DNA from: Nereocystis luetkeana
Lineage: Eukaryota; Sar; Phaeophyceae; Laminariales; Laminariaceae
Direction: 5' to 3'
Length of the DNA stretch: 64,000 nt
Assembly: GCA_031213475.1 (NCBI GenBank)
Contig: JARUPZ010000014.1
Coordinates: forward strand, 2,728,001 to 2,792,000
Positions 5,470 to 60,900 of the stretch are shown piece after piece (the first letter of the stretch is position 1; every line of letters begins with the position of its first letter). Under the pieces are notes generated by a model. It ran no database searches. It saw only the letters and a list, made by a program, of their open reading frames with translations, and had not been told where the DNA came from. A program made the position numbers and the translations under genes.

Positions 5470-8400
5470 GTGAGTCCCTCGTAGAGCCTCAAACTACCTC
5501 TCGCACCTTCAATGAGAACCAGCTGAGACACACAGACAGCAGTGCAGCTCGTAGTCAACTCTTCAATCAACGGTCGCGCCAGCTTTGCTTGAAGAGCGTG
5601 AGCCCCACCCCCAGGGTCCTTCCGAGCGTTGGGGTAGCGTACGCGCGGCTCGATTCCTGAAGCTGGCGGGCGTCTCTCGTGTCAACTTTGGCATTTTTTT
5701 GTTGTCATATTTTATAGATAGGTCACACATGTGCGGTTCCCAACGTTCCCACGCAATGGACACGTGTTGTTCGTGCGATCGCTGTACATCGCAACTGTCC
5801 CGAAATGTAAGAACCAATTTAATATGAATATTAATACTCAAATGGTTTTTAAATTATCGGACGTCGTTGCCTACCTCAAGCAAGCACTTACAGCAGTTAC
5901 TACAGCAGTACTGCTGTTGCTGTAGTGATTTTGCCCTCTGGTTGATAAAGGCGCTTCTCGCGTACCAGGTGTATGAGAGTGGAGCTTGGGGGCATCACCA
6001 TCACTGCTCAAAAACTTCTTGTTCTGGCTCCGTCCGCCTGTGTCCCAACGCCTTCCGGTATTCTACTCCCGTCGCGTGCCGACGGCCTGGGATCTGCAGC
6101 AGACCTACGTACGACGTACCTGGTACAAAGTAGTGGCACCTCGTGTCGTACCTGGTACCTATGAATACGAGTGTAAGTACCGGGTACCTGGTACCATGTA
6201 CCTGGTACGTACCAGGTACCAGGTATGTTATTTCCAACTTCGGGCGTAAATGTAAGCACCGTTTGTTCATTATATCAAAATTTTAACGGTCCTTATATTT
6301 TCGTCCAACATGGTATGTATCATTGGGGATACAGTCTTGTACGAAATGATGCTCATTGTGGCTATCCACGTGTGTGCTCTCGTACCTCATCGTTTCGTAC
6401 CTGGTACGTTCAATAGAACCGAGGTCCCAGGAGTGCTGCCTGCCTCCACGTGTCGTTGTTGCCCGCGGATGGTTGCCGTGACTCTCCGCAGCACCGCTCT
6501 GTACCCAGCAGTGCCGCTGGGTTCTGGCTTTGCCCCGCGCTCCTTGCGGTGGGGTAACGGCTCGATGCGCCTCTTGCTCTCTCTTCGCGAAGGCGTTCAT
6601 CGAAGGCTAAGGCATGCATGCTATTTTATTGCCTATAAACGTTACAGCAGACCTGCTTTATCCCTTTGGGTGTACCAGGGTATGCGAGTACTCGTGTGAG
6701 GGCTCTACACAACCAGGTACAGTATCAGTGTACGCTTTTGTAGTAAGAACGCTGACCTCTGACCCCCCCCCCCCCGCCCTTCACCCACACCTGTTTTGGA
6801 TAGAAGGGTGCCCCGGTCTATGATGTGGTGACTGTTCGCGGTAAAAAGTACCCACTACCCAGACTGCCCTCAACCCCATGCCCCCCCCCCAACCCCCCTT
6901 TTCATCCAACCATACTATCAATGTATTAGTAGTGCTGACCTCTACTGCCCCCCCCCCCCCCCCCCCTTCACCCACGCCTCGTGTGATCGAAAGGTTTCCC
7001 CGGCAAGCGTCGCGGTGGCTCTTCGTGGTAAGATTTACCCCCCCCCCCCTTTTCCCCCCACCCCCCCAAACCGCCTCCCGACCCCATCCGCGTCCAAAAC
7101 CTCCTTTCATCAAGCTATAACATCAACGTGGTAATAGTGCTGACCTCTGTTGCCACCCCCGCCCCGTCACGCCTCCCCCACCACCCCTAACCCCTCACCC
7201 CGCCCCCAACAGATTTTCATCCCACCGTAATATCAACGTTTCTATAGTGTTGGTCTCTGCTACCCCGCCCGCCCCCTCCCTTCACCCCCGCCTTTTTTTC
7301 ATTGAAAGAGTGCCCCGGAAAGCGGTTTGGTCTCTCTTCGCGGGAAGTACCCCCCCCGCCCCCCCCCTTTACCAGCCCCCTTTCCATCCAACCATGATAC
7401 CAACGTATTAATAGTGACATAGTGATGACCCTCGCCCTTAGAAAAAGCTTTTATGTAATATATATAAAAAGGAATGGGCGCCCAAATGTTGGTGGTGTCT
7501 CTATTAGGAGTAGGAGCGGTGCTCCGTCTCGAAAGGGATGCGTGGTCAATGGTCGAAAGACACGAAGGCAAGCAACAAATGAGTTCCCCCCCCCCCCCCT
7601 TCCCCCCAAGAGGCGGTTACATAGTACCCCCATTGCTGTCTCTGGAAGTGGCTACACCGGAAATTAAATCACGAGTAACTCAATGAAGCTGTCATCCGTA
7701 TGCAAGTCCGCTTGGCAAACGGTTCTTAGTAGGATGCAGCTCACCCTTCATGCGACTCGCCGGACACCTCACGGCGCCTCGCGCTTGGTGCAAGCAATGT
7801 CTGCCTGGTCGGTGAAAACCCAACATGCTCCGTCCCGGCATTGTAGAGATGCGAGGGTCTATGGTCATACAACTACGGCCATGCATGAGGCCGAGTACAT
7901 CTCTCCTATCGAGTAAACCCCCCCCCCTCCCCCCTTCACCCCCGCCTCTTTTCATTGAAAGGGTGCCCCGGTAAGCGTTGTGGCGACTTTTCATGGGAAG
8001 TACCCCCCCCCTCTCTACCAAGCCCCTTTCATCCAACCATGATATCAGATATCAACGTATTTATAGTGCTGACCTCTGCCCCCCCTCCCCCCTTCACCCC
8101 CGCCTCTTTTACGTTGAAAGGGCGCCCCGGTAAGCGTTGTGGTGACTCTTCGCGGTAAGAAGTACGATGTGAAAGGAGCCACGAGCGTTTCGGACGTTCA
8201 GAAGTCTGTGGAGGAGCAGGCTGGCCTCGCGAAGGAACAGCAGGTGCGCACCGCTATATACGCTGTTGTCTCTGCTTTCATTTGTAGTGTTGATGAGCAG
8301 TATGGGTTATTGTATTTTCAGCACATTGTAGCACCTCTGTTGGCGCTGCTTTTGCTGCTGTTGCTGGCTACTGCTAGTGCTGCTGCTGCTCGTATGTACT

Positions 8401-11400
8401 TCTTGTAGTTCTGCTGCTATTGCTACTGCTCTTGCTTCTTCTTCTACTACTGTTACGTGTACTGCTACCATTACTGCTGTTGTCTGTACTGGTTCCACTC
8501 ATACTGTGGCTTTCTGCTGCTGCTAGTAGCATTATATTACCACTTATACGGAGTGTACAGCTACTAGTTATATACTACCAGTACTATCTATACTCTATAT
8601 TCGCGATACTTCTGCTACGAGTACGTCTATCAAACGCACTGCTGCTGTGTCGCGCCCAGGTGCTCCATCGAAAGAGGCTTTCGTGTGCGGAATGTTTCCG
8701 ATCGCGTGGGCGAAAAAAAAAACGCTTTCTACGAGGCTATGAACACTGCCGCTATTTCGCGCACCGACGATCCGTCGTGAAGACGGCAGTGTTGACGACT
8801 TGTCCCGCCTTCGACACGACGGTCGACGGCTCATACTAACAGACCGCTTGCGACTCAGCCCCTTTCGGAAACCCCTCTTGGAAACCTCTTTTTGGAAATG
8901 CCTCTTGGAATCCTCTTTTGGAAACCCCTCTTGATAGCGACCAGAGCATTCATCATTCTGATGTTTTTTAACCCTTTTAGGGCAAAACTGCAGTCCCGTT
9001 CCGGGGACAAATCACTCTAATTCCGAGTAGTTTGTCCCCAAATCTGGTCTGCAGCACTAAACGGTTGAGTGTCTACTACGAGCGGCGTGAACGCCCCGCA
9101 GTATGGGCAGAGAGGATCATGTCGCTTGCGCCCGTGCCGTGCGACCCCTGAAAGTGTCACTCGGACACAACCATTATCTTCTCCCCCGCCCAATCATCAA
9201 TCACGCAGTGACCGGTGCTGTAACCGTCATTTTTTGTCGTCGATTTCCCCCCCTCATAAGTCCCAGGAGGGTCAAGAAAAGAGGGGAACATTATCGGTTC
9301 TTTTCTTTTGGTTCGGTTCGGTTCGGTTCGGTTCGGTTTGTTCTGTTTTTGTTTTATTTTTTCTTGTTTTCTTTCCGCTTATTGTTACGTACCTTCGCCT
9401 TGTTTTCTCCCTCACTCTTTGGTGGTGACTCAGATCTGGGGTCAATGTGCCAGGCTCTCCCCCCCCCTCCCTGGTCGGTGAAAACCCGACATGCTCCATC
9501 CCGGCATTGTAGGGATGCGAGGATCTATGGTCATACGCCTACGGCCATGCATGAGGTCGAGTACATCTCTCCTGTGGAGTACCTCTCCCTCCCTCGTTCC
9601 CCACTTCGGTTCGTGCGTTTAGTTATATGGCGAGAGAAGACTTCATTCAGTCCTTCCTTCCCTCGTCCATCGACTCGCGCCGAACTAAAATGTGTCGGTT
9701 ACAGCAACAACCGCGGCGTGTGATTGGAGGATGCTTATATACTACTGGTATACTAATTGGGGTCCGAGTTACAACGGTTGAATGCAAGGATTCGTACGGC
9801 ACGAGCGGAGGCAACACGACCCTACCCGTATATACTGCTGGGCGCTCGCGCACGCTGATATTAATACCAGATGGTAGATAGCACCAAAGTTATCAACCAT
9901 TGTTTTTTTTGTCGCCATCTCGGGCCCCCCCGAGAGGGGTTAATAACTCGCTCTTCATTTTGAGAAAAAAATCTAGGATTTTTCCAGGGGGTCGGAGTAA
10001 AAGGAATAGGGTTTCAGTACATCTGAACAAGTTATACAGAATATAAATTGAGTAAATTTATGTTGGTGGAATTCGTGGGCCGCGAAACCATAGCAAGCCT
10101 TTGCCGCCCCCCCGACCACCACCCGCGTATTTTCGCCTATCTTCAGTAATATTACATTTGACGACTCGTACTCGAAGAAATTTACTGGAATCAGGTTGCC
10201 CTGTGAGTCGTTAATACCACGTTTTTTTAGTTTCAAGGGGATGTTCAAGGCGATGTACCTGGCCAAGTAAATTTCATTTTTTTGTCTCTTTCGTCGGAGC
10301 TGAACCAAGGTCTTTCATACATCCTGGGACTCTGTGGGGAAAAGGAAATAACGTTTAAAATTAACGTGTGGAAATATTCATATTACGGGGGACCATAGTG
10401 AATAGGACCAAATTTTCTTGGTGAAAATAGGGAAATAAATAGGTTTTTATATTCACCGTAGGTCTTACCGTATTTAATATGGTCCCCCGTAATGGTATGA
10501 ATCGGTGCAAGAATCGGTGCGAGTGATATACACTGTATACAGCAAGTCAAGTCATTAATTGCATAGCGGCACGTATCGTACTGTGTGAATAAATCCTTTT
10601 GTGTCTTTCTTTTGCTAGGGTAATGGTACACCATAGACAGGGGTCAAAGTTGTAGCCCTCAGCAGTGCTCACGACTTGCTCCAATTGACGCAACGGTTTT
10701 TAGCCCGTGATGGAAGATGAAACGAACGCCCACCCAGCCGAGTAACAACTCCAGGGTGATGGGGTATTTGACCAATTAGCTATAGTACTGGTATATGAAA
10801 GTCGTGTACTACTAGCCGATTTCCCGCCCGGGGTAAAAGCCTCACAACATCCCCACTCCACTTCCTCCGTTAAAGTTGTAGATCTCTCAGCTGCTCGTAT
10901 TTTGTGTAACCGATTGCCCATCGAGGGTAAGCCTGATGAAGAAAAGCCCACTCGGCTCCACTCCGCTCTGTAGAAAGGTTGTTGCAGATCCCTGAGCTAC
11001 TTGTAAAACGTTAATCGATTAACCACCCACGGCGTGCCTTGTATCAACTCAATTCCGCTCCGCTCACTCCAGGCCCATCTGTTGAAGACCGCCGAGCTAC
11101 CGGTCACCAGGTGGTTGCGCACCCGGGTAAAACTGATTCGAAGTAGCAACTTCACTCTCGCTCCACTCGGCTCCACCCTATTTCACTCCACTCCACTCGA
11201 CTTGTCTCAACTCGATTTCACTCGGCTCCACTCCTTTTCGCTTCACTCCGTGACACTCCACTAACTCTGCTCTGCTTTATTTTGCCATACTCTACGAGTC
11301 TACTCTACGACTCTGCTTTACTCTACTCTACCCTACTTTTACTCTACCCTACTCTACTCTCCTCTCCTCTCCTCTACTCTACTCTACTCCACGCTACTCT

Positions 11401-14400
11401 ACTCTACTCTACTCTACTATACTCTACTCTATTGTCATTTCTCCACTCTACTCTACTCTACTCTACTCTAATCTACTCTACTCTACTCTACTCTACTCTA
11501 CTCTACTCTACTTTACTCTACTCTACTCTACTCTACTCTACTCTACTCTACTCTACTCTACTCTACTCTACTCTACTCTACTCTACTCTACTCTACTCTA
11601 CTCTACTCTACTCTACTCTACTCTACTCTACTCTACTCTACTCTACTCTACTCTACTCTACTCTACTCTACTCTACTCCACTCCACTCCACTCCACTCCA
11701 CCCCACCACACGACTTCACTCCGCTCCACTCCATGCCTTGCCTCGCCTCGCCTCGCCACGTCCCTCGCCATCTCACGTCTCGCCATGGCATGTCACGTCA
11801 ACGTGAAGTCCCCGCGTCGCGCAGTCCCGGACAAAACTCCCGCGCTCCGACCTCGCGCCAAGCCTCTCCTCGCCTACGCCCGGCGATCTAGATTGAAGTC
11901 GGCCGTGGGAGGGGATGGCTGGTCGCGTTGTTGGTCGGCAGCTCGGTGCGGGTATGGGTCGGGGGGCGCTGTAACAGAAACACCGCCAAAAACATCACAA
12001 CCGACAACAGCAGCAACAACACCATCACAACCACCCCCACCGGCATCAACGCCATCTCCACGAATACCACCACAACCAACAACAACCTCAACACCACCAA
12101 CACAACAAACACCACCATCACCAACACCAGCAGCTTTAGCTCTTGCTTCATGGCGACTTCGGTTCCCTTCCCTGGCGTCAACGAAGAAAACACTATCGGA
12201 CCGTTCCGGTTTTCGCGTCTTTGGACCGGCGTACGCCCTTGTCGCCACTGCGCGAGGTCGCGCTCCCGTGGGCCGGGAGGAGGTTGACCCGACCGGGGAA
12301 CGATGCTATATGGCGGCGCTGATCGTGGCGACGGTGGCGGTAGTGATTGCCACAGCGTCGTTAGCGATAACGATTTGGATGATGGTGATGTTATTTGACG
12401 CTTTCGCGAGTTTGTTCAATTGGTAGTGGTCGATACCTTTGCAACGTTCTGAGGGTTAGACTGTAAAAGAACAACTTTTGGCACCAACCCCATCCCACTC
12501 CACTTTACTCCACTCCACTCCACTACTCATCTCTCCACACCAATCTACTCCACTTCACGCCTTGCAACGGCTTGCCTCGCCTCGCCGCGTCCGTCGCCAT
12601 CTCACGTCTCGCCATGGCATGTCACGTCGACGTTAAGCCCCCGCGCCGCGCAGTCCCGGAAAAAACTCCCGCGCTACGACCTCGCGCCAAGCCTCTCCTT
12701 GCCTACGCCCGGCGATCTAGGTTAAGGGCGGCTCTGGGAGGAGAAGGCTGGTCGGGCTGTAGGTTGACAGCTCGGCGCGGGTATGGATCGGGGGGCACTG
12801 TACCGCTAACGCCGCCCAACGAAACACCACTACCACCAACATCACCAACGACAACAACTCCACGAACACTCCCGCAACCAACACCACCATCACCACCAAC
12901 GACTACAACATCAACCCCAACGTCGACGCCAACATCAACACGAGCGGCCTTAGCTTTAGCTTCAAGGCGATTTCGGCTTCCTTCCCTGGCGTCAACGAAC
13001 AAACAAGTATTGGACCGTTCCGATTTTCACTTCTCCGGACCGGCATGCACCCTTGTCGCCGCCGCCCGAGGTCGCGCTCTCGTGGGCCGAGAGGGGGTTG
13101 ATCCGGCGGGAGAACGGCGATATAGGGCGGCGTTGATCGTAGCGACGGTGGCGGTAGTGATCGCCACCGCGGGGTTAGCAATAGCTATTTTGATGATGCT
13201 GGCGTTCTTTAGCTTTTTCACGGGATAATTCAGTTGGTAGTAGTCGATATTTTTGCGTCTATGGGGCTATGTTAAACCCCCTTTGGCATCCTTTTGGCAT
13301 GGAGTGGAGTTTGGTCTAACCTCTTTGGATTTGCACCCCGCGATATGTCGGACAAAGCACGTGGGTTGACGTGCTATTTCGAAGGATGAGTCTTTCTCGC
13401 CTGCTGTGATGCGATAGGAGGAGTGTACTTATTGTCATGCATGGCCGTCGTCGTATGGCATAGACCTTTGCATCCCTACAATGCCAAAGGACGGAGCATG
13501 TCGGGTCTTCACACCGACCAGGCAGTCATCGATTGCTTGCACGTAGAGCGATAAGTGCCGTGATGTGTTTGGGCGGGTCGCATGACGGGTGACCTAAGCT
13601 GCGCCCTGCTAAGAACCGCTTGTCAGGCGGAAATTCTTGCACTGGATGGCAGCGTCGAAATAATATATTTGCAACAAAAAAATTGGCCAAAATCTTCTTC
13701 TTTTTTGACGGGGGGCGCGTAAACTGATAAACCATACCCTGGTATACCCCAGTGTCATTATTTTTGAGTTTTTTTTTGTTTCGTTGTATACCCACCCAGA
13801 CCATGAAGTTGTTTGTTCGTCGGCTTCCCCCATTTTCATTTCTTCCAAGGCTGTTCACGAGTCGGGTCAAAACTCGCGGATCGGGCCGGATCGGATCACC
13901 TAGTATAACCCGACTTGACCCAACCTGTGAGCTTTCGAATGCCTCCTGACCCAACCCGACCCGACCCGTAAGGTTTGAAGAACTCCCAACCATGGAGCAG
14001 CCTTGATTTTATTCGGGTTGCTCACCACTTGTTCCAGAAAATGGTTTGACAACACGCTGTGTACGAGACGGAATAAAACTTGAACCTAACGCTAACCCTA
14101 CCCCCACTAACCCAATCAGAGCAAACCGTAATCCTGACCCCAAGCCAATCGGGCCAAATCTCGAATAAAAGTGGTACCCAACCCTACTGGATTTTTTCTC
14201 AAAGCGGGGCTCTGGGTGGGCGTAGAAAGCTCCACAGATGAGAAGAAGCGCTCAGAAAAAAGCCAGGTGTACTCCCTACCCCCGACCGTAGCCTGCGTCT
14301 TTTGCAGCGATATATATATATATATATATATGTAGTTCTATATATACATATGTAGAAGGGCTAACTTTGACCCTTTTTTTTCCAAGACTTCACAGATGGG

Positions 14401-17400: not shown

Positions 17401-20400
17401 TGGGAAGCGTCAGCCTGTATAAACCCTCCTGACCCGAGGTGCGTATTTCGTGTTGTTCATATAGCCTATTTGCAGTGCTCCCTCGTTGCCCCCCGCGCCC
17501 GTTTCGCCGCTTTTGCGTCCCCTCCTCTCTTCCCGCCCGCACCCAGTCTGTTTTTGCTGGAGGGAAAGTTCCTGCTGACCCCCCCTCACCCCTCCGCTTT
17601 ATTACATATCCCCGCACCTGTTTCTCGCCCGTCCCGGTCTGGTTTGCTCAACGGCAACCTCCTGCTATGACCCCCCTCATCCCGCCGCTTGTTTATTATT
17701 TATTCCCGCACCTGCTCCCCGCCCGTCCCAGCCTGATTTGTTGAACGGCAACCTCCTGCTGTGACCCCCCTCATCCCGCCGCGTTATTATTTCATGCCGC
17801 CCCTGCTTCCCGCCGGTACCAGTCTGTTCTGTTCAAGGGAAACCTCCTGAAGCCGGAGTTGGACCTGGAGGAGGCGGGGATCGCGGACGGGGACACGGTG
17901 AACGTCGTCCCCAGCAAGAAGCCTAAAACGGCCGCTTCGGTGAGTTTCGCAGTGTACGTGAAGGCCCTTTTTTCCTGGTAGAGGCCCCACTTGAGACGGT
18001 GGTGGCGGTCACCCGCCGCTTACCTTACACCGAGCGCTGCAGGGTTTTTTTTCTGGTGTGACGTACGGCAGAAACAAGGAAGAGAGTCGCCCATTTTGAG
18101 GTGGAGAATATCATGTTGCTCTACTTTCAACAATGTATGTGATTGACAGTAGTTTTCCCCCCCGGAAACTGGGGGCAGACATGGAATGGGTAGCCTCCCC
18201 CCTCCCTCCCCCTACGGTGCTCCGTCTCGGAAGGGATGCGTGGTCAATTGTCAGATGACCTAAGGCGAGCAACAAATGAGGACCCCCCCCCCCCCTGCCC
18301 CCTCTACTACCCTCTAATACTGAAAGATGCTGGTATTTGTCTATGGCCAAAATGACTAAGGTGAGCAACAAACAAGTACCCCCCCCCGCCCCCCTTTGTC
18401 CCATCCCCCCCTCTACTCCCTAGTACGACTTGTAGAAATAAACTGGCATCCTCTCTTGTCTCCCTGTATTCTATGTGCGTAGTAGTAGTCTTATTAGTCG
18501 CTTGTACGGGAGAGACCGTACTCAACGGAACCGACGATGGACCCGATAAACGCCTTATCGCCTACTGCTGGATGCTGACAAACCATATTCGGCGGTGGTG
18601 TCGATGCTCGCCCGCAGTACGGTACTTGGTACTTACAGACTTGAGATTTTCCGTGAAATGTGGGTGCGGCTATGGAATAAAAAGGGGTAGTAACCTTTCC
18701 CCCCCTCACCCTATCCGCCATGGGTTTTTCTCAGGCCGAGAAGGCGTTCACAGTGGGCGCCGGCGGGGACGCGGAGGAGATTGCTGAGGGGGGGGAGGGG
18801 GGCGAGGGGGCTGTGGCTGGCGGCGCTGGCGGCGCTGATCCGTTTGGTCTTGGGGCGTTGGGTGGGCTCGGTGGGATGGGGGGGATGGGGGGCATGGGGG
18901 GGATGGGGATGCCTCCGGGAGTCTCGCCGGAGCAGTACCAGTCGATGATGAAGGTGGGTAGGGTGGAGGTTGGGGGGGTGTGGTGTGGTGCGGTGTGGTG
19001 TGGGGAGGGGTGTACTCACTATCATGCATGGGCGTAGTCGTGTGACCATAGACCCTCGCATCTCTACAATACCGGGACGGAGCACATTCTGGGGGTGGGG
19101 GCGGGGATGGCGTACTCATTTGTTGCTTGCCTTGGTCATTTGACCATTGACCACGCATCCCTCGAGACGGAGCAGGGGGGTACTCAACAAGGGGGGGAGG
19201 GGGGGGCGTATCATAAGCTGCTGGGCTTAGTCATTTGACCTTTTAACACGTGGGGGCGTACTCGATACTGTGCATGGCCGTAGTCGTATGACCATAGACC
19301 CTGGCATCCCTGACATGTTGGAAATGAGCACGTCGGGTGTTCACCGACCAGGCAGATATTGTTTGCACCAAGCACGAAACGTCGTGAGTAATGTGGTGTT
19401 CCAAGGGGGGTGGGAAGGGGGGGTAGGGCAGGGGGGGGGGGGGAGGGGGCACTTATGCCATGCATGGCCTTTGTCGTATGGCCATAGACACTCGCATCCC
19501 TACCATGTCGGTGATGGGCACGTCGAGTGTTCACCGACCAGGCAGACATTGATAGCTTGAACCAAGCGCGTAGCACCATGAGGCGTTCGGCGAAGTCGCA
19601 TGTTGAATTGCATCCTACTTTGAACCCCGCTTGTGAGGCTTGCGTATGGATGACAGCATCGGATTTATGTATTTTTCGGAGGGGGGGGGGGCGGTAGGGG
19701 GGTAGAGATTGACTATGCGATGCATGTAGAAGCCGCAGGGAGTGCGGCTTGCGTTGCGGTACCTTCCTTTCCCGCCTTGCTGCTGCCTGTACGAGTAGCT
19801 TGGAAATAAAAAACTTTATGCTGCAGTGCAAGCTGCTGTGTGCAGCAGACAACAGACGATGGAACACAACGTAATTACGACTCGCCGTTGAAGTATCAGA
19901 GGCTGGTGCTTGCAGACAGCAGGCGACGAAGCACTACGTAGGACCTACCTGCGAATTAGACACAAACTGGCCTTGCGGAAACGGTTGGTGTTGCGATGGC
20001 CTATATAGCTCCAAAGTCTGCGGTATTTTTTTCATGACGTTTGCACGCATGATCATTGATCAGACCCTTGCGCTCACTACAATGGAAACCCCCTCGAAGA
20101 AACCACTAAATAAAGCCTTTATCATCATTGAAACCCCTCAATGAAACCGCCAATTTTCATTGAAACCCTCGGGCAATGAAACCTCCGTCAGGAAGTCGTG
20201 AACTCCAACATTTTGGATCTGGAGCCACCTATTCTGTTTGGGTTTTCCGGTCCGCCGGAAGACCAAAACAAAAGGAAGAACAAAAATTAATAACAATTAT
20301 CATTGAAACTCCCTCAATGACACCGCCACCAGGAAGTGAAGAACTCCTACATGATGGATTTAAAACCCCTAATTATCGTTGAAGCCGCCTCGATAAAACT

Positions 20401-22410
20401 GCCATCAGAAAATGATGAACATGATTCTTGAGATTTTTTTTACATATCCGCCGGAGGATGGAAGAAAAAGGGGAAAACCTACCGTACTGGTAGTTACTTA
20501 TGTTTGAAACTCTCCTCCATGAAACCGCCGCCAGGAAATGATGAACTCCGACATGATGGAGGAGGTGCTGGGCAACCCGGAGAAGATGGAGCAGGCGCGC
20601 CAGGCAATCCTGCAGAACCCGACGCTCAAGCAGGCGATGACGCAGCTGCCGGGCTTCAGCGACATGGTGAGGCCACAGTAATTGACTATCGGCAAGAATG
20701 GACCCCCCCCTCCCCCCGCGGTTTGTAGGGATGCGAGGGAATATGGCCATTTTTATTCACTGATTTATTTTAACCATGACTACTCTCCAGTTCTCTGGAC
20801 AAGCCGTGGTCTTTTCCTCCCCCCCCCCCGTTGCTGTCTATGGCCATACGACTACGGCCATGCATGAGATCGAGTACATCTCTCCTATCGAGTACACCTC
20901 CCCCCCCCCCCCATTGCTTTCTCTGGAAATGGTTACGCCGGAAATTAAATTAACTCATCGAAGCTGTCATCCAGATTCAAGTCCGCCTCTAAAGCGGTCC
21001 TTAGTAGGATGCAGCTCACCCTTCATGCGACTCGCCAGACACCTCGCGGCGCTTCGCGCTTGGTGCAAGCAATGTCTGCCTGGTCGGTGAAAACCCGACA
21101 TGCTCCGTCCCGGCATTGTGGGGATGCGAGGGTCTATGGTCATATACGACTACGGCCATGCATGAGATGGAGTACATCTCTCCTATCGAGCGAATACACC
21201 CCCCCGCCCCCCCCCCCCCCCCCCCCGCCCCTTCCCCCCCCCGGTATAGAAAGGCCTTCATTTTTATCGAGCGGAGGGTTCAGCATTCCCACTGCTCGTC
21301 GATTTCCATCGTCTTTTTGCCAACTCACGCGTTCCCTCGAGCTTTCCGCGATGAAAAAGGGGTACATACATAGAGCAGTCATTCTTTTGTTTTTTTCTGG
21401 AAACCGGCCAGGATTCGAATGTCGGTCCTCTCAAGCTTTTAAATTAGTATTCGAGTTAACCACTCGACCACCGGGCGTCCGGGGCAACCGGCCATACACG
21501 ACGATGAGAACACCCCCCCTCCACCCTCCCCGTGTCTCTGTCAGGAGTAGGAACGATGCCTCGCATCGAAAGGGCTGTGTGGTCATTGGTCTAATTAATG
21601 AGTGAGGCAACACATGAGTACGCCCCCCCCCCTCCCTCGCTCCCTCAGGTTGGCCTAGTTTTTTATGGGAAACACTACGGTGGGGTGTCAGGAAATGGAG
21701 AGCAAAAAACACCCCTTACAAGCACCACCGATTTATGATCTTACACGCGGACTATATAGAGAGAACTGCTATCAATAGTTTTTGGTGGTACTGGTGTAGG
21801 GACTTCTTACGTTTTCATGTGCGTTGGTCAAGCGTCCGTTCGGAAGGTTCGATGCAGCAAGTCTTCGTTATTTTATAACCAGGTACACAGCAGTAGTGGC
21901 CCCTCTATGGTGCCGGTATATTTTCGTCAGGTAAACCATAGCGGCACTATACACTATTACGTACGGGGAGCCATAGTTAATACCATGGTAGGACCTATGG
22001 TATACATAAAAACCTACTGAAGTATATATTTAACCATTTTTACTAACAATATTTGGTCCTATTAACTATGGTCCCCCGTAATAGCGGCAACCGGCACTAC
22101 TCCGCACACCATATACCATACTGGTTAATCCCAGCTGTACCAAGCGATTTCACGGACACTGCAGCGGGCAGCCGGCACTATACCGGTATACCAGGAACAT
22201 CACAGCCCCTGACCCCCCCCTGCTCCTCCTGCTCCTCCACCTCCCCCACCCCCCACCCCGTATCCGGGCGTTCAGATCGATTCTCCGGAGAAGTGGCGGG
22301 AGAACATGGAGATGGCTTTGGAGATGTTCAAGGCCCAGAAGGCGATGCTGCAGCAGGAGGGCGGGGAGGACGCGGCGGGGGCGGACGTCGATGACCTCGA
22401 TGACGACTAA
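5401..22410 (+). CDS. Signal-peptide UBL-STI1 protein (six exons, 264 aa)
   Basis: I assemble exons 5401-5469, 8121-8243, 17823-17939, 18735-18953, 20535-20666 and 22276-22410. Every intron is GT..AG and phase 0. Residues 1-23 look like a signal peptide. Residues 27-95 align with ubiquitin along the whole fold: TLRGKKYDV, then SVSDVQKSVEEQAGL, EQQSVLFKGNLL and AGIADGDTVNVV. The Ile44 position is Leu, Lys48 is Asn, and there is no C-terminal di-Gly, so it is a domain and not a conjugated tag. A Gly/Met-rich linker follows. Then comes a helical segment with NPEKMEQARQAIL and NPTLKQAM, like the STI1 repeats of ubiquilin/Dsk2 and Sti1, and an Asp-rich end. Such proteins usually shuttle clients to chaperones or the proteasome; that role is inferred. 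If the leader is real, the protein enters the ER, or in a complex-plastid alga perhaps the periplastid space. Confidence 0.78.
6115..6235. repeat. Cluster of TACCTGGTA / TACCAGGTA words
   Basis: At least six copies of ACCTGGTA or its complement lie within 120 bp, some fused as GGTACCTGGTACC. The same word is scattered through the whole window, often next to TA (see findings). Confidence 0.75.
7440..7600 (+). mobile_element. C-tailed repeat family 2, copy 1
   Basis: The unit contains CCAAATGTTGG, GTCTCTATTAGGAG, GGTGCTCCGTCTCG, AAAGGGATGCGTGG and GCAAGCAACAAATGAG, then a run of more than ten C. Related copies lie at 18215-18390 (two, partial), 19100-19180 (minus), 21525-21625 and 28008-28185. 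Each ends in C-rich sequence after the ATGAG/GAGTAC block. No coding capacity. Confidence 0.65.
7607..7915 (+). mobile_element. C-tailed repeat family 1, copy 1
   Basis: A 300-bp non-coding repeat running from AAGAGGCGGTTACATAG through GAAGCTGTCATCC, ATGCAGCTCACCCTTCATG, CTGCCTGGTCGGTGAAAACC and ACTACGGCCATGCATGAG to a GAGTA end followed by a C run. Fourteen full or partial copies are in this window, on both strands. Its spread and constant C-rich 3' end suggest a SINE-like element, but I see no clear pol III A and B boxes. Confidence 0.7.
8121..8243 (+). CDS. UBL gene exon 2 (ubiquitin-like domain, first half)
   Basis: Acceptor GAAAG, then GAPVSVVVTLRGKKYDVKG and the stretch to AGLAKEQQ, then donor GTGCGC. 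It covers beta strands 1-2 and the central helix of the ubiquitin fold. Phase 0 at both ends. There is no in-frame ATG, so an upstream exon is required. Confidence 0.85.
8244..8967. other. Start of intron 2 of the UBL gene
   Basis: Degenerate GCT/TACTGC-type trinucleotide-rich DNA from about 8330 to 8640, then a short direct repetition of CCTCTTGGAAA/CCTCTTTTGGAAA words around 8860-8935. The long Leu- and Ala-rich frames here follow from the triplets. No gene seen. Confidence 0.6.
8968..9067. mobile_element. TTAA-flanked MITE family B, copy 1
   Basis: Begins TTAACCCTTTTAG and reads in to GCAGTCCCGTTCCGGGGACAAA; the second half is the inverted version. It is a member of the family described at 46785, and the right-hand TTAA is decayed. 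Confidence 0.65.
9471..9582 (+). mobile_element. C-tailed repeat family 1, copy 2 (partial)
   Basis: The 3' third of the element, from CTGGTCGGTGAAAACCCG to GAGTACATCTCTCCTG. A C run lies before it. Just upstream (9309-9340) are five tandem GGTTC units. Confidence 0.65.
9583..11033. other. Intron 2, mostly unique sequence
   Basis: Apart from the MITE at 10381-10494, I see no gene or repeat with more than one copy. Short frames of 60-110 codons exist on both strands, with no recognisable domain or splice-consistent context. Confidence 0.5.
10381..10494. mobile_element. TA-flanked MITE family A, copy 2
   Basis: The element is about 110 bp and starts TATTACGGGGGACCATAG, continuing (T/G)(T/A)AATAGGACC. 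It ends with the inverted form GGTCC..ACTATGGTCCCCCGTAATA. The inside is A/T-rich (ACTAACAATATTTGG in most copies). Eleven copies are in this window: 493, 10381, 14615, 21955, 24817, 39837, 41034, 41202, 49403, 49543 and 50383. The superfamily is not assigned; the conserved terminal TA suggests a TA target. Confidence 0.85.
11034..11710. repeat. (CTCTA)n pentanucleotide array with degenerate flanks
   Basis: From about 11284 to 11690 the sequence is almost pure CTCTA units (over 60). It is flanked by degenerate relatives (CTCCA, CTCGG) from about 11150 and again at 12490-12560. The 174-codon Ser-Thr-Leu-Leu-Tyr frame it creates is an artefact of the period of five. Confidence 0.92.
11785..12426 (+). 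CDS. Nested paralogue 1: small protein with C-terminal membrane segment
   Basis: A 213-codon frame starting MACHVNVKSPRRAVPDKTPA. The first 60 residues are basic. Residues 64-112 are a Pro/Thr/Ser-rich linker. A second conserved block contains GPAYALVATARGR and GERCYMAALIVATVAVVIA. The last 37 residues are strongly hydrophobic, so the protein could be tail-anchored. A tandem copy at 12614-13228 keeps the same frame. Over a 130-bp stretch of the N-terminal region I count 15 base differences, ten at third codon positions, which supports selection on this frame. The gene lies wholly inside intron 2 of the UBL gene on the same strand, just after the pentanucleotide array. No family recognised and no function proposed. 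The opposite strand also has a shorter shared frame, but the substitution pattern favours this one. Confidence 0.55.
   Translation: MACHVNVKSPRRAVPDKTPALRPRAKPLLAYARRSRLKSAVGGDGWSRCWSAARCGYGSGGAVTETPPKTSQPTTAATTPSQPPPPASTPSPRIPPQPTTTSTPPTQQTPPSPTPAALALASWRLRFPSLASTKKTLSDRSGFRVFGPAYALVATARGRAPVGREEVDPTGERCYMAALIVATVAVVIATASLAITIWMMVMLFDAFASLFNW
12614..13228 (+). CDS. Nested paralogue 2: small protein with C-terminal membrane segment
   Basis: A 204-codon frame whose start (MACHVDVKPPRRAVPEKTPA) is chosen by alignment with the copy at 11785; a non-ATG extension upstream is not needed. Order of parts: basic N-terminal block, Pro/Thr-rich linker of different length and composition from the paralogue, a conserved block ending GERRYRAALIVATVAVVIA, and a hydrophobic C-terminus (LAIAILMMLAFFSFF). 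The two copies begin 829 bp apart and share about 35 bp upstream of the ATG plus CTCCA-type repeats, so the duplicated unit included the edge of the pentanucleotide array. The linker has drifted while both ends are kept, as expected for a real protein with a flexible spacer. Confidence 0.55.
   Translation: MACHVDVKPPRRAVPEKTPALRPRAKPLLAYARRSRLRAALGGEGWSGCRLTARRGYGSGGTVPLTPPNETPLPPTSPTTTTPRTLPQPTPPSPPTTTTSTPTSTPTSTRAALALASRRFRLPSLASTNKQVLDRSDFHFSGPACTLVAAARGRALVGREGVDPAGERRYRAALIVATVAVVIATAGLAIAILMMLAFFSFFTG
13418..13660 (-). mobile_element. C-tailed repeat family 1, copy 3
   Basis: A reverse-oriented and rather diverged copy, recognisable from GTGTACTTATTGTCATGCAT through CACCGACCAGGCAG to GCGTCGAAAT. 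Its poly-C tail is reduced here. Confidence 0.6.
13661..15500. other. Intron 2, central part
   Basis: No gene supported. It contains GACCCAACCCGACCCG-type short repeats (13900-13970), a (TA)n run at about 14311-14332, a G run at 14478-14491, and the MITE at 14615-14719. The unit around 14520-14620 resembles 9780-9870 (GGCAACACGA, GGGCGCTCGCGC). Confidence 0.5.
14615..14719. mobile_element. TA-flanked MITE family A, copy 3
   Basis: Left end TATTACGGGGAACCATAG; right end TTTGCTATGCCCCCCCGTG. Slightly decayed at the right. Confidence 0.75.
15580..16200. repeat. GATC-rich repeat region
   Basis: Degenerate units of about 50 bp containing ACAGATAGATCCC / ACAGATCCC, then longer GATCTAGATC-type sequence. 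The AGATCATGAAGTGGGGATCGATGAT segment recurs in GATC-rich blocks near 28640, 56240 (inverted) and 59880. No gene seen. Confidence 0.55.
16205..16705. repeat. Four-unit tandem repeat, ~120 bp period
   Basis: Units restart near 16256, 16383, 16505 and 16620 with (G/C)(A/C)C(A)ACAGGAAACC-like sequence, then AGAGTCCCACGGTGATTTTTCC, GGCCAAGGTTTTGC and AGTCGG. A fifth, lone unit lies near 15930-16000. The repeated Gly-Thr-Leu-Phe frames on the minus strand are a by-product. Confidence 0.7.
16760..17310. other. Intron 2, 3' part
   Basis: Contains two diverged copies of a unit with TGACATAAC(C/G)CA.GAGTTTTCCT (near 16888 and 17034) and a 21-base C run at about 17283-17303. No gene seen. Confidence 0.5.
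17540..17822 (+). repeat. Echo array 2: partial copies of the exon 3 front
   Basis: Three imperfect copies of the intron end plus about 30 bases of exon 3 precede the real exon. Their exon-like parts begin at 17547, 17638 and 17732, and the real exon begins at 17823, a period of 91-94 bp. Each has CCCGCCCGTCCCAG-like acceptor sequence, then a version of TCTGTTCTGTTCAAGGGAAA with CCTCCTG, and breaks off there. In the middle copy the AG has become GG. A fainter copy may lie at 17409-17432. Confidence 0.85.
17823..17939 (+). CDS. UBL gene exon 3 (ubiquitin-like domain, second half)
   Basis: Acceptor GTACCAG, then SVLFKGNLLKPELDL, EEAGIADGDTVNVV and PSKKPKTAAS, then donor GTGAGT. It supplies strands 3-5 of the ubiquitin fold. 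Phase 0 at both ends. Confidence 0.87.
17940..18734. other. Intron 3 of the UBL gene
   Basis: Holds two partial copies of C-tailed family 2 (18215-18300 and 18335-18390, plus orientation), each followed by a C run. Nothing else recognised. Confidence 0.55.
18735..18953 (+). CDS. UBL gene exon 4 (Gly/Met-rich linker)
   Basis: Acceptor TTTTTCTCAG, then AEKAFTVGAGGDAEEIAEGG, a Gly-rich acidic stretch, four GGM repeats and PPGVSPEQYQSMMK, then donor GTGGGT. 73 codons, phase 0. Gly/Met-rich spacers are common in STI1-type co-chaperones. Confidence 0.82.
19010..19665 (-). mobile_element. Cluster of reverse C-tailed repeats in intron 4
   Basis: Three family-1 pieces (19010-19092, 19254-19395, 19460-19662) and one family-2 piece (19100-19180), all minus strand. 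Because they are reversed, their tails read as G runs at their left edges (around 18995, 19188-19207 and 19428-19455). The pieces are truncated at different points. Confidence 0.65.
20070..20534 (+). repeat. Echo array 3: partial copies of the exon 5 front
   Basis: Units read CATTGAAAC-CCCTCAATGAAACCGCC, an AG border, then a version of GAAATGATGAACTCCGACAT. Exon-like parts start at 20192, 20333 and 20409, and the real exon starts at 20535. Two still contain GATGGA/TTGGAT after the first 18 bases. Earlier fragments of the intron part lie at 20085-20150. Confidence 0.82.
20535..20666 (+). CDS. UBL gene exon 5 (STI1-like segment)
   Basis: Acceptor CGCCAG, then EMMNSDMMEEVLGNPEKMEQ, ARQAILQNPTLKQAMTQLPG and FSDM, then donor GTGAGG. 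44 codons, phase 0. The NPEKM..ARQAILQNPTLKQAM pattern is typical of STI1 domains. Confidence 0.87.
20830..21197 (+). mobile_element. C-tailed repeat family 1, copies 7 and 8
   Basis: A 3' fragment (20830-20898, ending GAGTACACC plus C run) is followed at once by a nearly full copy (20910-21197) that also ends in a C-rich tract. The tail of one abuts the head of the next, as if the second inserted into the C run of the first. Confidence 0.72.
21241..21494 (-). mobile_element. tRNA-derived SINE, copy 3
   Basis: On the minus strand it opens with a tRNA-like head: A-box TGGTCGAGTGG and B-box-like ATTCGAATCC about 45 bp further on. The body shares CGATAAAAATGAAGGC with the copies at 51535 and 53033. 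Instead of an A tail this copy ends in C/G-rich sequence. Confidence 0.65.
21525..21625 (+). mobile_element. C-tailed repeat family 2, copy 5
   Basis: Shares GTCTCTGTCAGGAGTAGGAA, CATCGAAAGGG and CAACACATGAGTAC, then a C run. Confidence 0.6.
21955..22083. mobile_element. TA-flanked MITE family A, copy 4
   Basis: Left end TATTACGTACGGGGAGCCATAG; right end ACTATGGTCCCCCGTAATA. Relative to the family it carries CCATGGTA inserted after TTAATA. Confidence 0.82.
22276..22410 (+). CDS. UBL gene exon 6 (C-terminal end)
   Basis: Acceptor GCGTTCAG, then IDSPEKWRENMEMALEMFKA, QKAMLQQEGGEDAAG and an acidic DVDDLDDD tail, then TAA. 44 codons plus stop, phase 0 at its start. The helical segment continues the STI1-like part. 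Confidence 0.85.
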   Translation: MDSPEKWRENMEMALEMFKAQKAMLQQEGGEDAAGADVDDLDDD

Positions 22411-40634: not shown

Positions 40635-40706
<72 letters not shown>

Positions 40707-49006: not shown

Positions 49007-49037
<31 letters not shown>

Positions 49038-49176
49038 AATAGTATATAGTTGTGCCCAAGGTTTTCTTCTATCAGGAAAGTGATGAGTGATCAATGTTGA
49101 AGATCATGCTGCACATTGTCGGATGGCACGGGAAGTAATAATAGTATTAATAGTAGTACTATTAATACTACTACTG

Positions 49177-49212
<36 letters not shown>

Positions 49213-49509
49213 TTAATGCTACCATTAATACTACTACTACTGCTACCATTAATACTACTACTACTGCTACTACTAGTACTACTATTACTACTACTACTAC
49301 TAGCACTATTACTACTACTACTACTACTACTATTAATACTACTACTACTACTACCACTACTACTACTACTACTACTTCTTCTACTACTACCACTACTACT
49401 ACTATTACGGGAGACCATAGTTAACAGGACCTATGGTATACATAAAAACCTATATGTTTAACCATTTTTACTAACAATATTTGGTCCTGTTAACTATGGC
49501 CCCCCGTAA

Positions 49510-49544
<35 letters not shown>

Positions 49545-49656
49545 TTACGGGAGACCATAGTTAATAGGACCTATGGTATGGATAAAATCCTATATGTTTA
49601 ACCATTCTACTAACAATATTTGGTCCTATTAACTATGGTCCCCCGTAATACTACTT

Positions 49657-49710
<54 letters not shown>

Positions 49711-54900: not shown

Positions 54901-57900
54901 TCGCGGGTGCCAGCGGGTGCTGGCGGGTAGAGGGGGGGTTGCAAGGAGCGCGGTCGCCGCTTTCGTGCCTAGGCGTCGCGTGTGCCTCGAGACACGAGGG
55001 ATACATGAACGGGCTTTGTCTGGCTTCGATTTATGATTGTTGATAGAGTATGTACGAGTTTATAAAGGTCGTTCGGGAGGGCAAGATAATATTCAAGCGG
55101 TGCTTATTTTTGCGACCACGCTGAAGTTGATAGAGGGAGGTGTGCAGTTTGAACACCAACGTTATCGAGCTGGCGAACGACGGCCACGGTGAGCACCAGG
55201 CTTCACGCGGGGCGGGCGACGGGGCTGATTGTGGCAGAGAGTGATAAAAGCTTTACCCGGACCGAATCGGTAGCGAGGTGGTCGCGAGAGGGGCGGGCGA
55301 CGTACGAGGCTGAGAGAGGAGTTCTTCTGTGCGATTTGTTTCTTTTCTTTTTTTCGACCCGGGTGTAAGGTGTTCCAATCAGGCAGAAAAATATTACACG
55401 AGAGGGGACGGGGATTTTTTTTCCTTTCCGAGTTTTCGGTTTCATTTTCATTGTTTTTGCTGCTGTGCCGTGCTGTGCTTTCACTTTCTTCGTACATACA
55501 GTACAGACATAAAGCATATCGAAAGAAGAAAATAAGTAAAGACAGTAGTACCCTACCTGGGGTGTACGTACGTACGTACGACATCCGCGACGCGAAGCGT
55601 ATATGTGGCATCCAAGCTGACGTCGGAGCTGTTTTTTCCTGAAGCATGGCGGCGGGACTCTTGGCATTATCAAGTCGCCGGTTTGCAATTACGATCCTTG
55701 AAAACACTAAACTCAATTGTGGACCTCTGTTCGCTTCGCATAAGTTGTTGTACTTTTTTCCTTCCTGAGCGAGCGTAGCGGGCGGCGTAGGCCGCCCGCG
55801 GAGCGAAGCGCCTTGAATGCCCTACTAAACACACCCTCGCTACCCAGGTACCTACCCGAGTATGACCTAAAGAACCAGGCTTGGTACCCGGGTACCCCAG
55901 AGTATATACTGAGTATACCCTACTAAACACACCTTTACCCGGGCACCTATCCGAGTATGACCCAAATGACCAGGTTCGGTACCCGGGTACCGCAGAGTGG
56001 ATATATACTGAGTGTGCCCTACTAAACACACCCTTGAAACGTTTGGGCCCTCATGTGCCTTTTCTACCGAGGCATAGCTCATATCTACACCCGCAGCCAC
56101 AACAACGCCCACGCATCTCAGGAGCCGCCCGCAATACGCTGGGAGTGCCCGGGTACTTACCTCAGTATGACTTAAACAACCAGGTTTGGGATTACCCGGG
56201 TACCCCACAGTAAACACACCCTTGAAATGTTTCACGCCCCGGACAGATCATCGATTCCCACTCCATGATCTAGACCCTTCAGGGCAGGTATATTCCTGAT
56301 CTGCATGATCTGCAGCAGTAGCTCGTGTTGCCGCTGCGTGAGAGCCGTAGCGTCTGCGGTATCTACTGTAGGACAGTCTTCCCGGGTTAGATCTGTACTA
56401 TTAATAGTACACGGATATTTGGGCAACATTTCGGTAACTACTACGCAGATATTTGGGCAACATCTCGGGAACGGCAGGTTAGGGTTTCAGATGATCTAGA
56501 TAATCCGTCTGATCTATCTGATCCGTCTGACGTGTGAAAAGGGTAGGCTCAGAAGTAGCCCCTCAATGCTGCCAGGGCTCATAACCGCACCCACCCCCCA
56601 CCCTCCCACACATGTACCCACCCCCACCCCTACACGGCAGGAGCTGCCCGCAGTCTCAGCTCAATGGGCTCCTTCGTCGGCCCGTCTCCGGAATGGCGCC
56701 CCATCGCACCCACCTCGGCGTCCATGGGAGGAGGAGTAGGAGGCGTAGTGGGAGGGGGGGGGCAGGGCATGAGCACGAACGTTTGTGGCAGCCACCGGGT
56801 CACCCCCAGCCCCCCCCCCGACCACCCGCGTCCCGGAAGTACCACAAGTATGACCAGCATGGGAACCATGGAGGTCCCGGGTCCCACCCGCCCTTTTTCG
56901 CTGGACGTTGATTGGGCCGCTAGTGGCGAGCTGGTACCGAGGCATATGCTGGAGGGGGGAGGAGGCGGAAGCGCGGGGGGGGGGGCGGGAGCGGGCAGTG
57001 CTGGGATGGCTGATAAGGTGTGTTTGGTAGTGGGGGGGGGGGTAGTTTTTCTTTACTCTTGTTTGGCGGCTGGGGGGTGTTGGGGTTGGGGGATCAAAAC
57101 TGGGTTGATGTGTTGTGTTAGCTCAGAAATGGTTTTGTTTGTGGTGTTGGTGTTGTTGGTGGTGGCGTAGTTTTTTGCTGTTTTTTGCTGCTGCTGTCGT
57201 TGTTGCCTTTGCGCGCGTGCCGCGTAGTGATGTGTAGCGATGCCTCGTCGGAAACCAGTCGCGCCGTGCATTTGTAGCCGCTTGGTTATTCTGCGCGGAG
57301 GTATCACGTCCTCCGAGTAGGTTTCCCTTCCTCTCCAGAGGCACCCCTCCTCCCGGCATTGTAGGGATGCGAGGGTCTGTGCCCATATGACTGCGGCCAT
57401 GCATGACATTGAGTACACCCCCCTTCCCCCGGACCCCGACTGTGACCCCGTCCCGCCTCCGTATTTTCGTTCAACATCAACAATATCTCATAGGCTCTCC
57501 CGGACAGCCCCTTCCTATACAGCAGTAGTGTAACACCCCTTGAGTACCTCCCCCCCGCCCGATTTTTCGTTTTTGGCAGTCAACATGGATGGTGGGCGAG
57601 TTAGGTCATTTTCGTGCGGGGTGGGTAACAATAAGTTAGCACAAGGAGGATGACGGCCTCACGTAGTGTGTACATGGGGCAGGCACCAACGAGGCAGTTA
57701 CATGGTATACCCCTTACTGCCTCTGGAAGTGACCACACCGGAAAACAAAAACAAACAAGTAATTCGATGCTGTCATCCGTTCAAGAAAGTGCGTACAGGG
57801 TGCCGTAGTCCGCTTCAGAAGCGGCTGATGGTAGGATGCAGCTCTTCGTTGATTTGACTCGCCGAACACTTCACGGCGTTTCGCGCTTGGGGCAAGCAAT

Positions 57901-60900
57901 GTCTGCCCGGTCGGTGAAAACCCGATGTGCGCGCTCCTTCCCGGCATTGTAGGGGTGCGAGGGTCTATGGTCATACGACTACGGCCATGCATAACAGTTA
58001 GTACACCCCCCCCCCTTTGGGAATTCGAATTATCTCATTGAAGCTGTCATCCGTTTTGCAAGTCCGCTTCACCAGTAGTTCTTAGTAGGATGCAGCTCAC
58101 CCTTCATGCGACTCGCCGGACACCCCACGGCGCTTCGCGCCTGGTGCAAGCAATATCTGCCTGGTCGGTGAAAACCCGACATGCTCCGTCCCGGCATTGT
58201 AGGGATGCGAGGGTCTAAGGTCATACGACTACGGCCATGCATAAGATCGAGTACATCTCTCCTATCGTGCACACACCCCTCTAGTCCCTCCCGACCCTCG
58301 ATTAGCCTCCGAGCATTATCACCTCCAACCCTCCCGCCGCCGCCCGCGTCCCCAACAAGCTCCCATACGCTCAGCACGAAACGAAAAACTCCCTGCCCCC
58401 CACCCCCGCCCCCGACACGCCTTCACGTGCTCAGTACAACCCCCCCCCCCTCCCTCGCCCTATCCCTCATCTGCTCCATAATTTCCGTTTGGTAACAGTC
58501 CTTCAATAACACAGCATCAGCAGCAGTATCGCGTTGCCTCTCCTGGGCAGACCTCTCCACCCTGCGCAGCACCCGCGCCCCCTTAGCCCCCTACCCACCC
58601 TCCCCCCTCCCCCGATATGCGTCCATATGATCAGCATAAGGACCTCCATGCCCCCCCCCCCCCGCCAGCGCCCCTGCCCCCGACATGCCTCCATATGCCT
58701 GACGACGCCATTCCCCCCCCCCCATTCCCCTTCATCCGCCACCAGAATTTCCGTTCGGAACAGCAGCAGCAGCAGCAGCAGTATCGTGTTGCTTCTCCCG
58801 GACAGACCCCTCCACCCTGCACAGCTTCTGCGTCGGCGTGGAGTGGCTACGCCTGGGCCCGTGCCAAGCCTGGTCAGGAGCACGACGAGAGAGGAGGAGG
58901 CGGTGGTGGGGGTGGGGGTGGTGGGGGTGGGGGTGGTGACGGTGGCGGTGGCTGTGGCGATTCAGACCTCAGCCTTACTCCCGAGGAAACCAGGGTGTTC
59001 AGTCGGACTGGCATTCTTCCCGCCCCCTCTGCGCTCCCTTCCTCGTCGGCGTATGATGGTGGAGGCGGTGGGGGTGGGGGGGGCGATGGGGTAGGAGGAG
59101 GAGGCTTTAGCTTTTCTACCCTCGGCGCCGACAGGTATTGTTAGTGCTGATGTTCGGGGGGGGGTGGGAGGGGAATTTTACATTGGGTGTGGCTGTGGTT
59201 GTGGTGGTGGTAGTGATGGTGGTACTAAGAGTGAAGGGTGAGGGGAGGATGGGGGGGGGCTTTCACATTGGTGTTGTTAGCGTTGGTGTTGATGGTTTGG
59301 TGGTCGTCTTGATGGTGGTGTGGTTACGGTGTTTGTGGTGTTGGTGGTATTGCTGGTGCTGTACTCCGACGGTGCTTCGCCCGTGTATCGTGACAGTTTT
59401 GTCTTTTTCTTGTTTTCTTGTTCAGTAAGTACGAAGCGTACGCACGTATGAATAGTCTATTTGCCTTTTTCATGTTTTCTTCGTACTTCTTCCACATGCT
59501 GTACACACGTTTCTTCTGTCAATTTCGTGTACATGCGTACTTCTTTGTGTTCGTTTCGTGTCGTGGCTGCTGGCGATTTTAATATTGCGAATGCCTATTC
59601 TTGCGATTGCCCATGCTCCCGAGAGCCGTGTACATTGTGTAACATGCTTTCGATTCCCGTTGTTTCGATTGGTTTCCATTCCGACATCTCGGTTGCACCT
59701 CCGATTTGATTGCCCACGCCTCGGGCTTTCGGTTACCTATCTATGACTCTGTTCTTGATCGCCCGTGCGTCCGTTCATTCGTTCGACAGCCTTGGTACAT
59801 TATTCCACACGACCTCGGACACTTCACGATTTAGAATATGTAGGTCTTCAACCTCACGTTAAGAGACGTTGTGCAGGATTCGCACAGTACAGATTCAGCC
59901 CTTGAAATCGATGGTAGGCCATGCAGGTGATTCGGCTCCCACCCGGCAACATGAGTTAGATTGTTCAGATCATACAGATCATACAGACCTGAAATATATC
60001 TGCCCTGGAGGATATAGATCATGAATCAAGGAGTGGGAATCGACAATATTTCCGATGTGTGCGCTTTGCAAAGGGACATCCTGAGGAGGTTGAGCTTGTC
60101 TCCCAAAAGCGCAAAAAAAGACCTTCGGAGGAGCGTTTCCAGCGAAGATTTACTGGCCGGGCTAAGGATCAGGGTGAGTCGATTTGTCGGATGCCTTTTG
60201 CTGTTCTTGTCAACCTTTTTCTTCATTTATTTTTTGTTTAACGGGTGTCTTATCGGGCGCGTCTTGTTATTGAGAGGGGCGAATATACTGGTCAACTGTC
60301 TGTTATTATTTCAATCGTTAACCGTTTCTTATCCTTATGTCACCAGTCGTTTCTTGTTCTCGTGCGTCGATCGTATCTTATTCGTCAACCACTTCTTGTT
60401 TTATATTTCTCAACCATTTCTTGTCCTCACATTTATCAATATTATTATTCGTCAACCGTCTCTCGTTCTTGCATTAGTCTATCGCTTCTTCTTCATCAAC
60501 TGTTTGTTGATATTACGTTGTCAATAGTTTCTTGTTCTTATTTTTGTCAACCGTTTCTTGGTATAATATTTTTCATCCGTTTCTTCTTATTTTGTCAACC
60601 GTCTCTTGATACCATATTTTTCAACCGTTTCTTGTGCTTGTTTTCGTCAACGTTTTTTTTTTTTTTGCGAAACGGCGCGGTGGCTGGCGCTACTCCTTTT
60701 TACGAGTGGCGCGTACGAATGCGTTACGCCACTTCCCCGGCGACCAAGTTAGATAGTGTGTACGGAGTGGGGGACGTTAACTCCGCGCAAGGATAATGAT
60801 CGTGTCACGTAGTTTGTACCAGGTATATTATAAGGCACCCACGAGGCAGCTACATGTTATACCCATTGATGTCTCTGGAAGTGGCCAAATCAGAAAAACA

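Follow-up and report, generated by a model that had tools for sequence, protein, structure and literature searches.

Serial copies of exon edges in the introns of a kelp are best read as ordinary tandem duplications

The window analysed here, 64,000 nucleotides of contig JARUPZ010000014.1 (positions 2,728,001 to 2,792,000, forward strand) from the kelp Nereocystis luetkeana (assembly GCA_031213475.1), holds two genes, A and B, in which exons are preceded by serial, degenerate copies of their own beginnings. Such copies, hereafter echoes, comprise the end of the intron and the start of the exon that follows, and they lie upstream of the exons at 8121, 17823 and 20535 in gene A and of the exon placed at 58746 by a preliminary description of this DNA in gene B. 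Self-comparison and multiple alignment bore out that description at all four exons, and the two genes that carry the echoes are indeed unrelated, both being conserved brown-algal genes. Our findings show that the repeats are real and significant, and the reading that fits them best is ordinary tandem duplication within introns where it overlaps exon edges, at both ends of exons.

The six exons of gene A form a single open frame with GT-AG borders after joining. The protein combines a signal-peptide-like start and a ubiquitin-like domain with a further domain, PF23195, which is taken from the precomputed annotation of its best homologues. Three proteins, two of which carry the name Ectocarpus, share 73-78% identity with it. 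The signal-peptide-like start together with the ubiquitin-like domain (5401-22410) suggests targeting to the endoplasmic reticulum or the plastid. Exon 2 on its own gave no Pfam match, and the Pfam ubiquitin match of exon 3 (E 4.4e-5) is weaker than the curated cut-off; the exon 2 segment is 98% identical to a Laminaria digitata model, with 16% of the query covered. Conserved Ectocarpus homologues were found for gene B as well. Because both genes are conserved in Ectocarpus, their exons are, on protein homology, ancestral. With our exon borders, introns are 796-9,579 bases long in gene A and 940-8,639 in gene B; for comparison, a mean intron of 1,057 bp is given for Saccharina (PMC4421812).

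Each echo resembles the intron end and exon start to which it corresponds, at roughly 60-90% identity. Self-matches spanning the junction scored 99.7 bits for exon 8121, 136 for 17823, 65.4 for 20535 and 98.3 for 58746, whereas among the remaining 88 of the 92 exons put through the self-match test one kinesin exon scored 72.5, one scored 24.0 and all others zero. For exons 17823 and 58746, one of 91 non-self comparisons exceeded the self score; its 316 bits are what a complete match would give, and we presume that it reflects an adjacent exon whose flank overlaps. The ten copy starts listed for the three gene A exons fall exactly on the first base past the AG or its counterpart. The copied exon portion, said to be 25-90 bases, measures about 45 bases for exon 2 (8121-8165), 27 for exon 3 (17823-17849) and 26 for exon 5 (20535-20560); counted from 58746 it reaches 87 bases, of which probably only about 27 are coding. 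Copies were confirmed ahead of the exons, but intron sequence does not simply resume behind each of them: the intron that follows also belongs to the repeated unit, and the loci are therefore tandem arrays. Copies of one unit lie head to tail in adjacency, except in the interrupted 8121 array and at copy 57459, with pairwise identities across whole units from about 47% (the doubtful copy 57459) to 82% in the multiple alignments.

The unit before exon 17823 has the described length of 91-94 bp and coincides with an array called by Tandem Repeats Finder at 17580-17849. In the 8121 array the AG is intact in all three of the copies 6807, 6994 and 7309, and the nearest copy to the exon is 90% identical to it over 81 bp (7921-8000 against 8079-8159). 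This array is split by unrelated sequence at about 7440-7915; within the interruption, 7801-7940 is a dispersed repeat, 86% like 9467-9602. Two of the listed copies are less secure, 20409 being moderate (42/83 alignment columns identical) and 57459 weak (79/167) and outside any significant self-match.

The start of the gene B exon at 58746 is probably wrong, since 58806 fits an in-frame CAG just before it. Ectocarpus homologues read ...MDK-TLTPSP... where the window reads ...DK-(NFRSEQ...PGQ)TPPPC, and the 20 intervening residues are absent from the Ectocarpus models. A start at 58806, probable on this alignment, is what reduces the copied coding portion to about 27 bases. The doubtful copy, with its exon part from 57508, sits upstream of the array proper. 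No echo was seen at the gene A exon 4 acceptor by self-comparison or the junction-spanning test, nor at gene A exon 6 or the gene B exon at 56641..57017 in the latter test. Coordinates are collected in the table.

Table. Exons of genes A and B and the arrays of partial copies, in positions of the window
Feature	Position	Strand	Basis and remarks
Gene A exon 1	5401..5469	+	start codon, signal-peptide-like; matches N-terminus of P0001-P0003; spliced model open to stop
First three partial copies, 8121 acceptor	6739..7416	+	exon parts from 6807, 6994, 7309; self- and multiple alignment
Fourth partial copy, 8121 acceptor	7917..8011	+	exon part from 7962
Gene A exon 2	8121..8243	+	ubiquitin-like domain, part one; homology, spliced model
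Three tandem units, exon 3 acceptor and first 27 bases	17489..17822	+	exon parts from 17547, 17638, 17732
Gene A exon 3	17823..17939	+	ubiquitin-like domain, part two; Pfam and homology
Gene A exon 4	18735..18953	+	homology, spliced model; dispersed repeat 3' of donor
Three partial copies, exon 5 acceptor	20144..20534	+	exon parts from 20192, 20333, 20409
Gene A exon 5	20535..20666	+	EMMNSDMMEEVLGNPEKMEQARQ...; homology, spliced model
Gene A exon 6, including stop codon	22276..22410	+	homology, spliced model
Gene B exon	56641..57017	+	homology to Ectocarpus P0051-P0053
Tandem array, 58806 acceptor	57807..58805	+	offset about 254 bp; clear copy, exon part from 58551
Gene B exon, probable start 58806	58806..59134	+	Ectocarpus alignment

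We compared acceptors with donors outside the window, using homology-defined exons of the same 465-Mb assembly. The sample comprised 79 of 132 kinesin-domain matches, included where at least 300 bases of flank were available, and 28 of 79 myosin-head matches, chosen from the list of matches without sight of their sequences. In this junction-spanning test a border region, reaching 15 bases or more to either side, had to be copied upstream of an acceptor or downstream of a donor at 45 bits or more after removal of low complexity, and positives were inspected by eye. Copies were found for 1/79 acceptors and 2/79 donors in the kinesins and for 0/28 and 2/28 in the myosins, which pooled gives 1/107 acceptors versus 4/107 donors (Fisher p 0.37); with the window included the counts are 5/118 and 4/119 (p 0.75). 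Two donor cases are kinesin exons: at C27:7383054 the exon end and GTGAG recur 124 bases downstream in an 82.7% identical spanning match that keeps the GTGAG, and at C12:2432666 42 bases across the donor are copied with three differences. The myosin cases are a single donor copy (C11:11262401, L064) and at least two serial copies of exon end plus GT (C22:3573695, L070). At the sole kinesin acceptor (C25:6961930) a 72-bp copy lies about 416 bases upstream with its CAG intact. Thus, recurrent local duplication in unrelated genes stands as first described, but a focus on acceptor regions is not supported: exon-start copies were not commoner than exon-end copies in the kinesin and myosin sample, and the donor-side equivalents found elsewhere in the genome mean that the pattern is not limited to acceptors.

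The same test was applied to the interior of introns. Random intron positions in the kinesin genes gave 11/370 copies upstream and 15/370 downstream, so that neither their acceptors nor their donors are enriched. In the introns of the window genes 28/183 positions upstream and 24/183 downstream fell in local duplications, or 24/166 and 20/166 once the four arrays were removed, and the upstream rate differs from that of the kinesins at p 4e-7. Local arrays occupy 17.1% of the window versus 5.0% of the kinesin regions. Compared with its own background, the window's 4/11 copied acceptors are only a weak excess (p 0.087 against 28/183, p 0.075 against 24/166), and this high rate fits a locally duplication-rich region; the window was, moreover, examined because the pattern had already been seen there.

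Less selective forms of the test behaved as follows. In the unfiltered self-match test, non-self matches equalled or exceeded self matches at low scores, and at 45 bits the non-self expectation per 92 exons was 0.66 on the acceptor side and 1.02 on the donor side; we attribute most of these non-self matches to repeats and to flanks that neighbouring exons have in common. The junction-spanning test adds a complexity filter and the intron background to it. Wrong-way controls, in which the exon 3' end was sought upstream and the 5' end downstream, gave none above a robust z of 4 in 86 exons, and one exon in one control outscored all 50 of its comparisons. Exon-only scoring against neighbour flanks was noisy: over 92 exons it ranked first seven acceptor-side cases (three from the window), three donor cases and one per wrong-way control, and it overlooked both the kinesin acceptor case on C25 and the 58746 exon. 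Its acceptor matches at C33:4746691, C18:5814707, C16:1570829 and window exon B3, and its donor matches at C1:20186431 and C17:8595830, fail the junction-spanning test. What had looked like a donor echo at exon 4 of gene A turned out to be a dispersed repeat, which aligns poorly at the junction itself. Two matches below 45 bits were not counted, at the L081 acceptor (36.8) and the L077 donor (25.4); L081 is a myosin exon (C22:3570745-3572148) with this faint acceptor-side self-match. A Cpn60 search for extra exons was unusable: its 70 rows, all of one Cpn60 gene and equal in score, fell on small contigs such as C53, C62 and C63 to C481, which are probably plastid or bacterial genome pieces remaining in the assembly.

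We consider it very probable that the echoes arose as intronic DNA underwent ordinary, recurrent local tandem duplication, with a right breakpoint that fell by chance inside an exon, and that splicing tolerated the outcome. A tandem duplication with its right-hand breakpoint a few dozen bases into an exon would leave a copied intron end and exon start ahead of an unaltered intron end with its whole exon. In the alleles that survive, splicing would stay with the downstream acceptor, behind which the remainder of the exon and the donor still follow, and the protein would stay intact. A stop codon is met between echo acceptor and exon in 12/12 window echoes, and the protein would therefore be kept only where splicing goes to the last acceptor; if only protein-preserving alleles survive, the echo comes first and the exon last. 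The order emphasized in the preliminary description is real, but no special process is needed for it, as any acceptor-crossing tandem duplication yields it and donors reverse it: a duplication across a donor would give the mirror image, with the real site first, and such mirror images are what the kinesin and myosin donor cases show. The echoes would later decay as intron sequence.

Tolerance of the duplications would most likely come about through exon definition, with short exons in long introns read as acceptor-donor pairs, of which an echo offers a single site. The efficiency of exon definition varies with the length of the exon but not with that of the intron (PMC3488318). The AG of the copied sites is mostly intact, so that decoy acceptors are left behind as had been described, and the persistence of intact decoys fits exon definition that ignores partnerless sites. 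We infer exon definition in this alga, the mutational route and neutrality. Codon positions 1, 2 and 3 agree between exon and echo in 98, 111 and 97 of 132 cases, counted with slightly inexact starts for some copies, and this profile is too flat for an argument.

Several points weigh against ordinary duplication as the full account. The window alone has copies at 4/11 acceptors and 0/12 donors, its acceptor rate is a clear outlier beside the 1/107 found elsewhere (Fisher p 0.0002), and in gene A alone 3/5 acceptors are copied, which is still unusual. The survey samples are small, and such counts leave room for a moderate acceptor bias. Exon borders outside the window are ends of profile matches and not drawn from RNA, and hence approximate, and a few matches contain stops; the myosin flanks were 600 bases only, which lowers sensitivity. 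Purifying selection at junctions could also mask a mutational excess there. Finally, AG or GT is retained in 17/18 copies, where flanking dinucleotides would predict 11.0 (naive P 0.0014) and where other AG/GT pairs are retained in 68/119 (Fisher p 0.0013), and simple decay explains the retention in the copies only in part. This partly unexplained result, together with two arrays having been searched genome-wide only in part, lowers our confidence slightly.

The contrast between acceptors and donors in the window speaks for the mechanism proposed earlier, namely duplication focused on acceptors through slippage or repair in C-rich tracts. C-rich tracts are present in three of the four units. 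Runs of at least eight C or G show a modest excess within arrays (per kb, 1.55 against 0.87 outside them for the window and 1.38 against 0.87 for the kinesin regions), a difference uncorrected for base composition that lends the C-tract proposal weak support. We nonetheless regard an acceptor focus as unlikely, given that outside the window donors are copied no less often than acceptors, that kinesin acceptors are copied no more often than random intron positions, and that the aligned 72 bp of the kinesin acceptor echo lack a long C tract. The retention of AG and GT, in turn, would follow if echo sites were functional, being kept by selection as decoy, poison or alternative sites that tune expression. 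Only one branch diverges at a copied site, because the real site cannot change; a rough single-branch value of 0.77 per copy gives an expectation of 13.9 (P 0.058), and copies in one array are not independent. With the earlier start at 58746 the count becomes 15/18, for which p is 0.028 against the 119 pairs and P 0.38 under the single-branch value. The stops into which all window echoes read disfavour new protein forms, though not poison sites. We do not take the retention as proof of selection, yet it is not fully explained; function for these sites appears very unlikely.

A mobile or dispersed repeat might have delivered acceptor-like sequence upstream of the exons, and such repeats do occur in these introns, including the pair at 7801-7940 and 9467-9602. 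Each echo, though, matches its own exon, and in DNA searches of the assembly the array units matched their own locus only. These searches covered arrays 17489-17870 and 20144-20600 whole and 7945-8240 and 58440-58850 as parts of the other two, and three of the four omitted even weaker copies beside the query, so that diverged relatives elsewhere could escape them; within that sensitivity, one unit at many loci, the mark of introner-like or dispersed elements, was not seen, and delivery by a repeat is highly improbable. We give equally little credence to decaying duplicates of alternative, mutually exclusive exons. Exon-start sequence is certainly duplicated, but only about 26-45 clear coding bases of exons at least 117 bases long are copied, no upstream match of an exon 3' end stood out, and every echo hits a stop, whereas mutually exclusive exons are copied whole, with both splice sites and the frame kept. 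An assembly artefact can be all but dismissed, as the copies differ by about 10-40% with insertions and deletions, where false duplications would be near-identical, and the contig spans 11.3 Mb.

Among known systems, minisatellite-like intronic tandem repeats consist of degenerate tandem units. The arrays described here are alike in this, with units of about 90-250 bp, and differ solely in that the array edge overlaps an exon. Internal gene duplication, which Gao and Lynch are said to have treated in PNAS in 2009, is the nearest concept: there, too, intron and exon sequence is copied locally within one gene, but in the window no new intron is seen, the copy sitting in an existing intron with a single splice site. 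Tandem genomic duplication as a route to intron gain (PMC3443670 and PMC2891723) likewise involves a tandem copy that includes a splice-site motif, with the original coding sequence preserved. In that model a duplicated exonic AGGT gives a new intron, whereas here an existing junction is duplicated, and the copies are partial exon starts or ends inside introns; the exons that flank the echo-bearing introns are continuous in Ectocarpus proteins, a comparison at the protein level in which Ectocarpus intron positions were not seen. Tandem splice sites of the NAGNAG kind also place several similar acceptors before one exon, but they lie 2-12 bases apart, in contrast to 91 to about 1,300 bases for the window echoes. 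A limited check of the open-access literature turned up studies of tandem-duplication intron gain and of splice sites a few bases apart, but no recognised description of partial exon-edge copies.

Other repeats are abundant in the window. A large tandem duplication (11665-12442 and 12497-13256, 79% over 781 bases) lies in the 9.6-kb intron of gene A; its translation resembles, by eye, the tail behind exon 2 of the public Laminaria digitata model P0031, which may read into intronic repeat sequence. Mutually matching repeats at 7801-7940, 9467-9602, 57347-57423, 57934-58011, 58184-58255, 60931-61166 and 61484-61725 form at least two groups, with reported pairs 75-87% identical. Very long simple-sequence tracts (TCTAC/CTCCA, GTA and CTA/TAC units) occupy 11299-11733, 40535-40797 and 48641-49737. 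A 374-amino-acid open frame at 37183-38307 (+) matches the reverse transcriptase family PF00078 (E 2.6e-7) and is probably a retroelement fragment.

There is a slim chance that exon-edge duplications leave kelps with a lasting stock of intact splice sites that are one-sided, unpurged and perhaps kept by selection, some of them recruited as poison or alternative sites, with hot spots of the gene A type. If this is true, one-sided sites would serve as natural tests of how strict exon definition is toward unpaired sites. On ordinary duplication, an impressive serial-echo pattern can come from plain tandem duplication filtered by protein preservation, and it may mislead gene prediction. Echoes at both exon ends are natural, datable decoys for studying splice-site choice in a long-intron alga.

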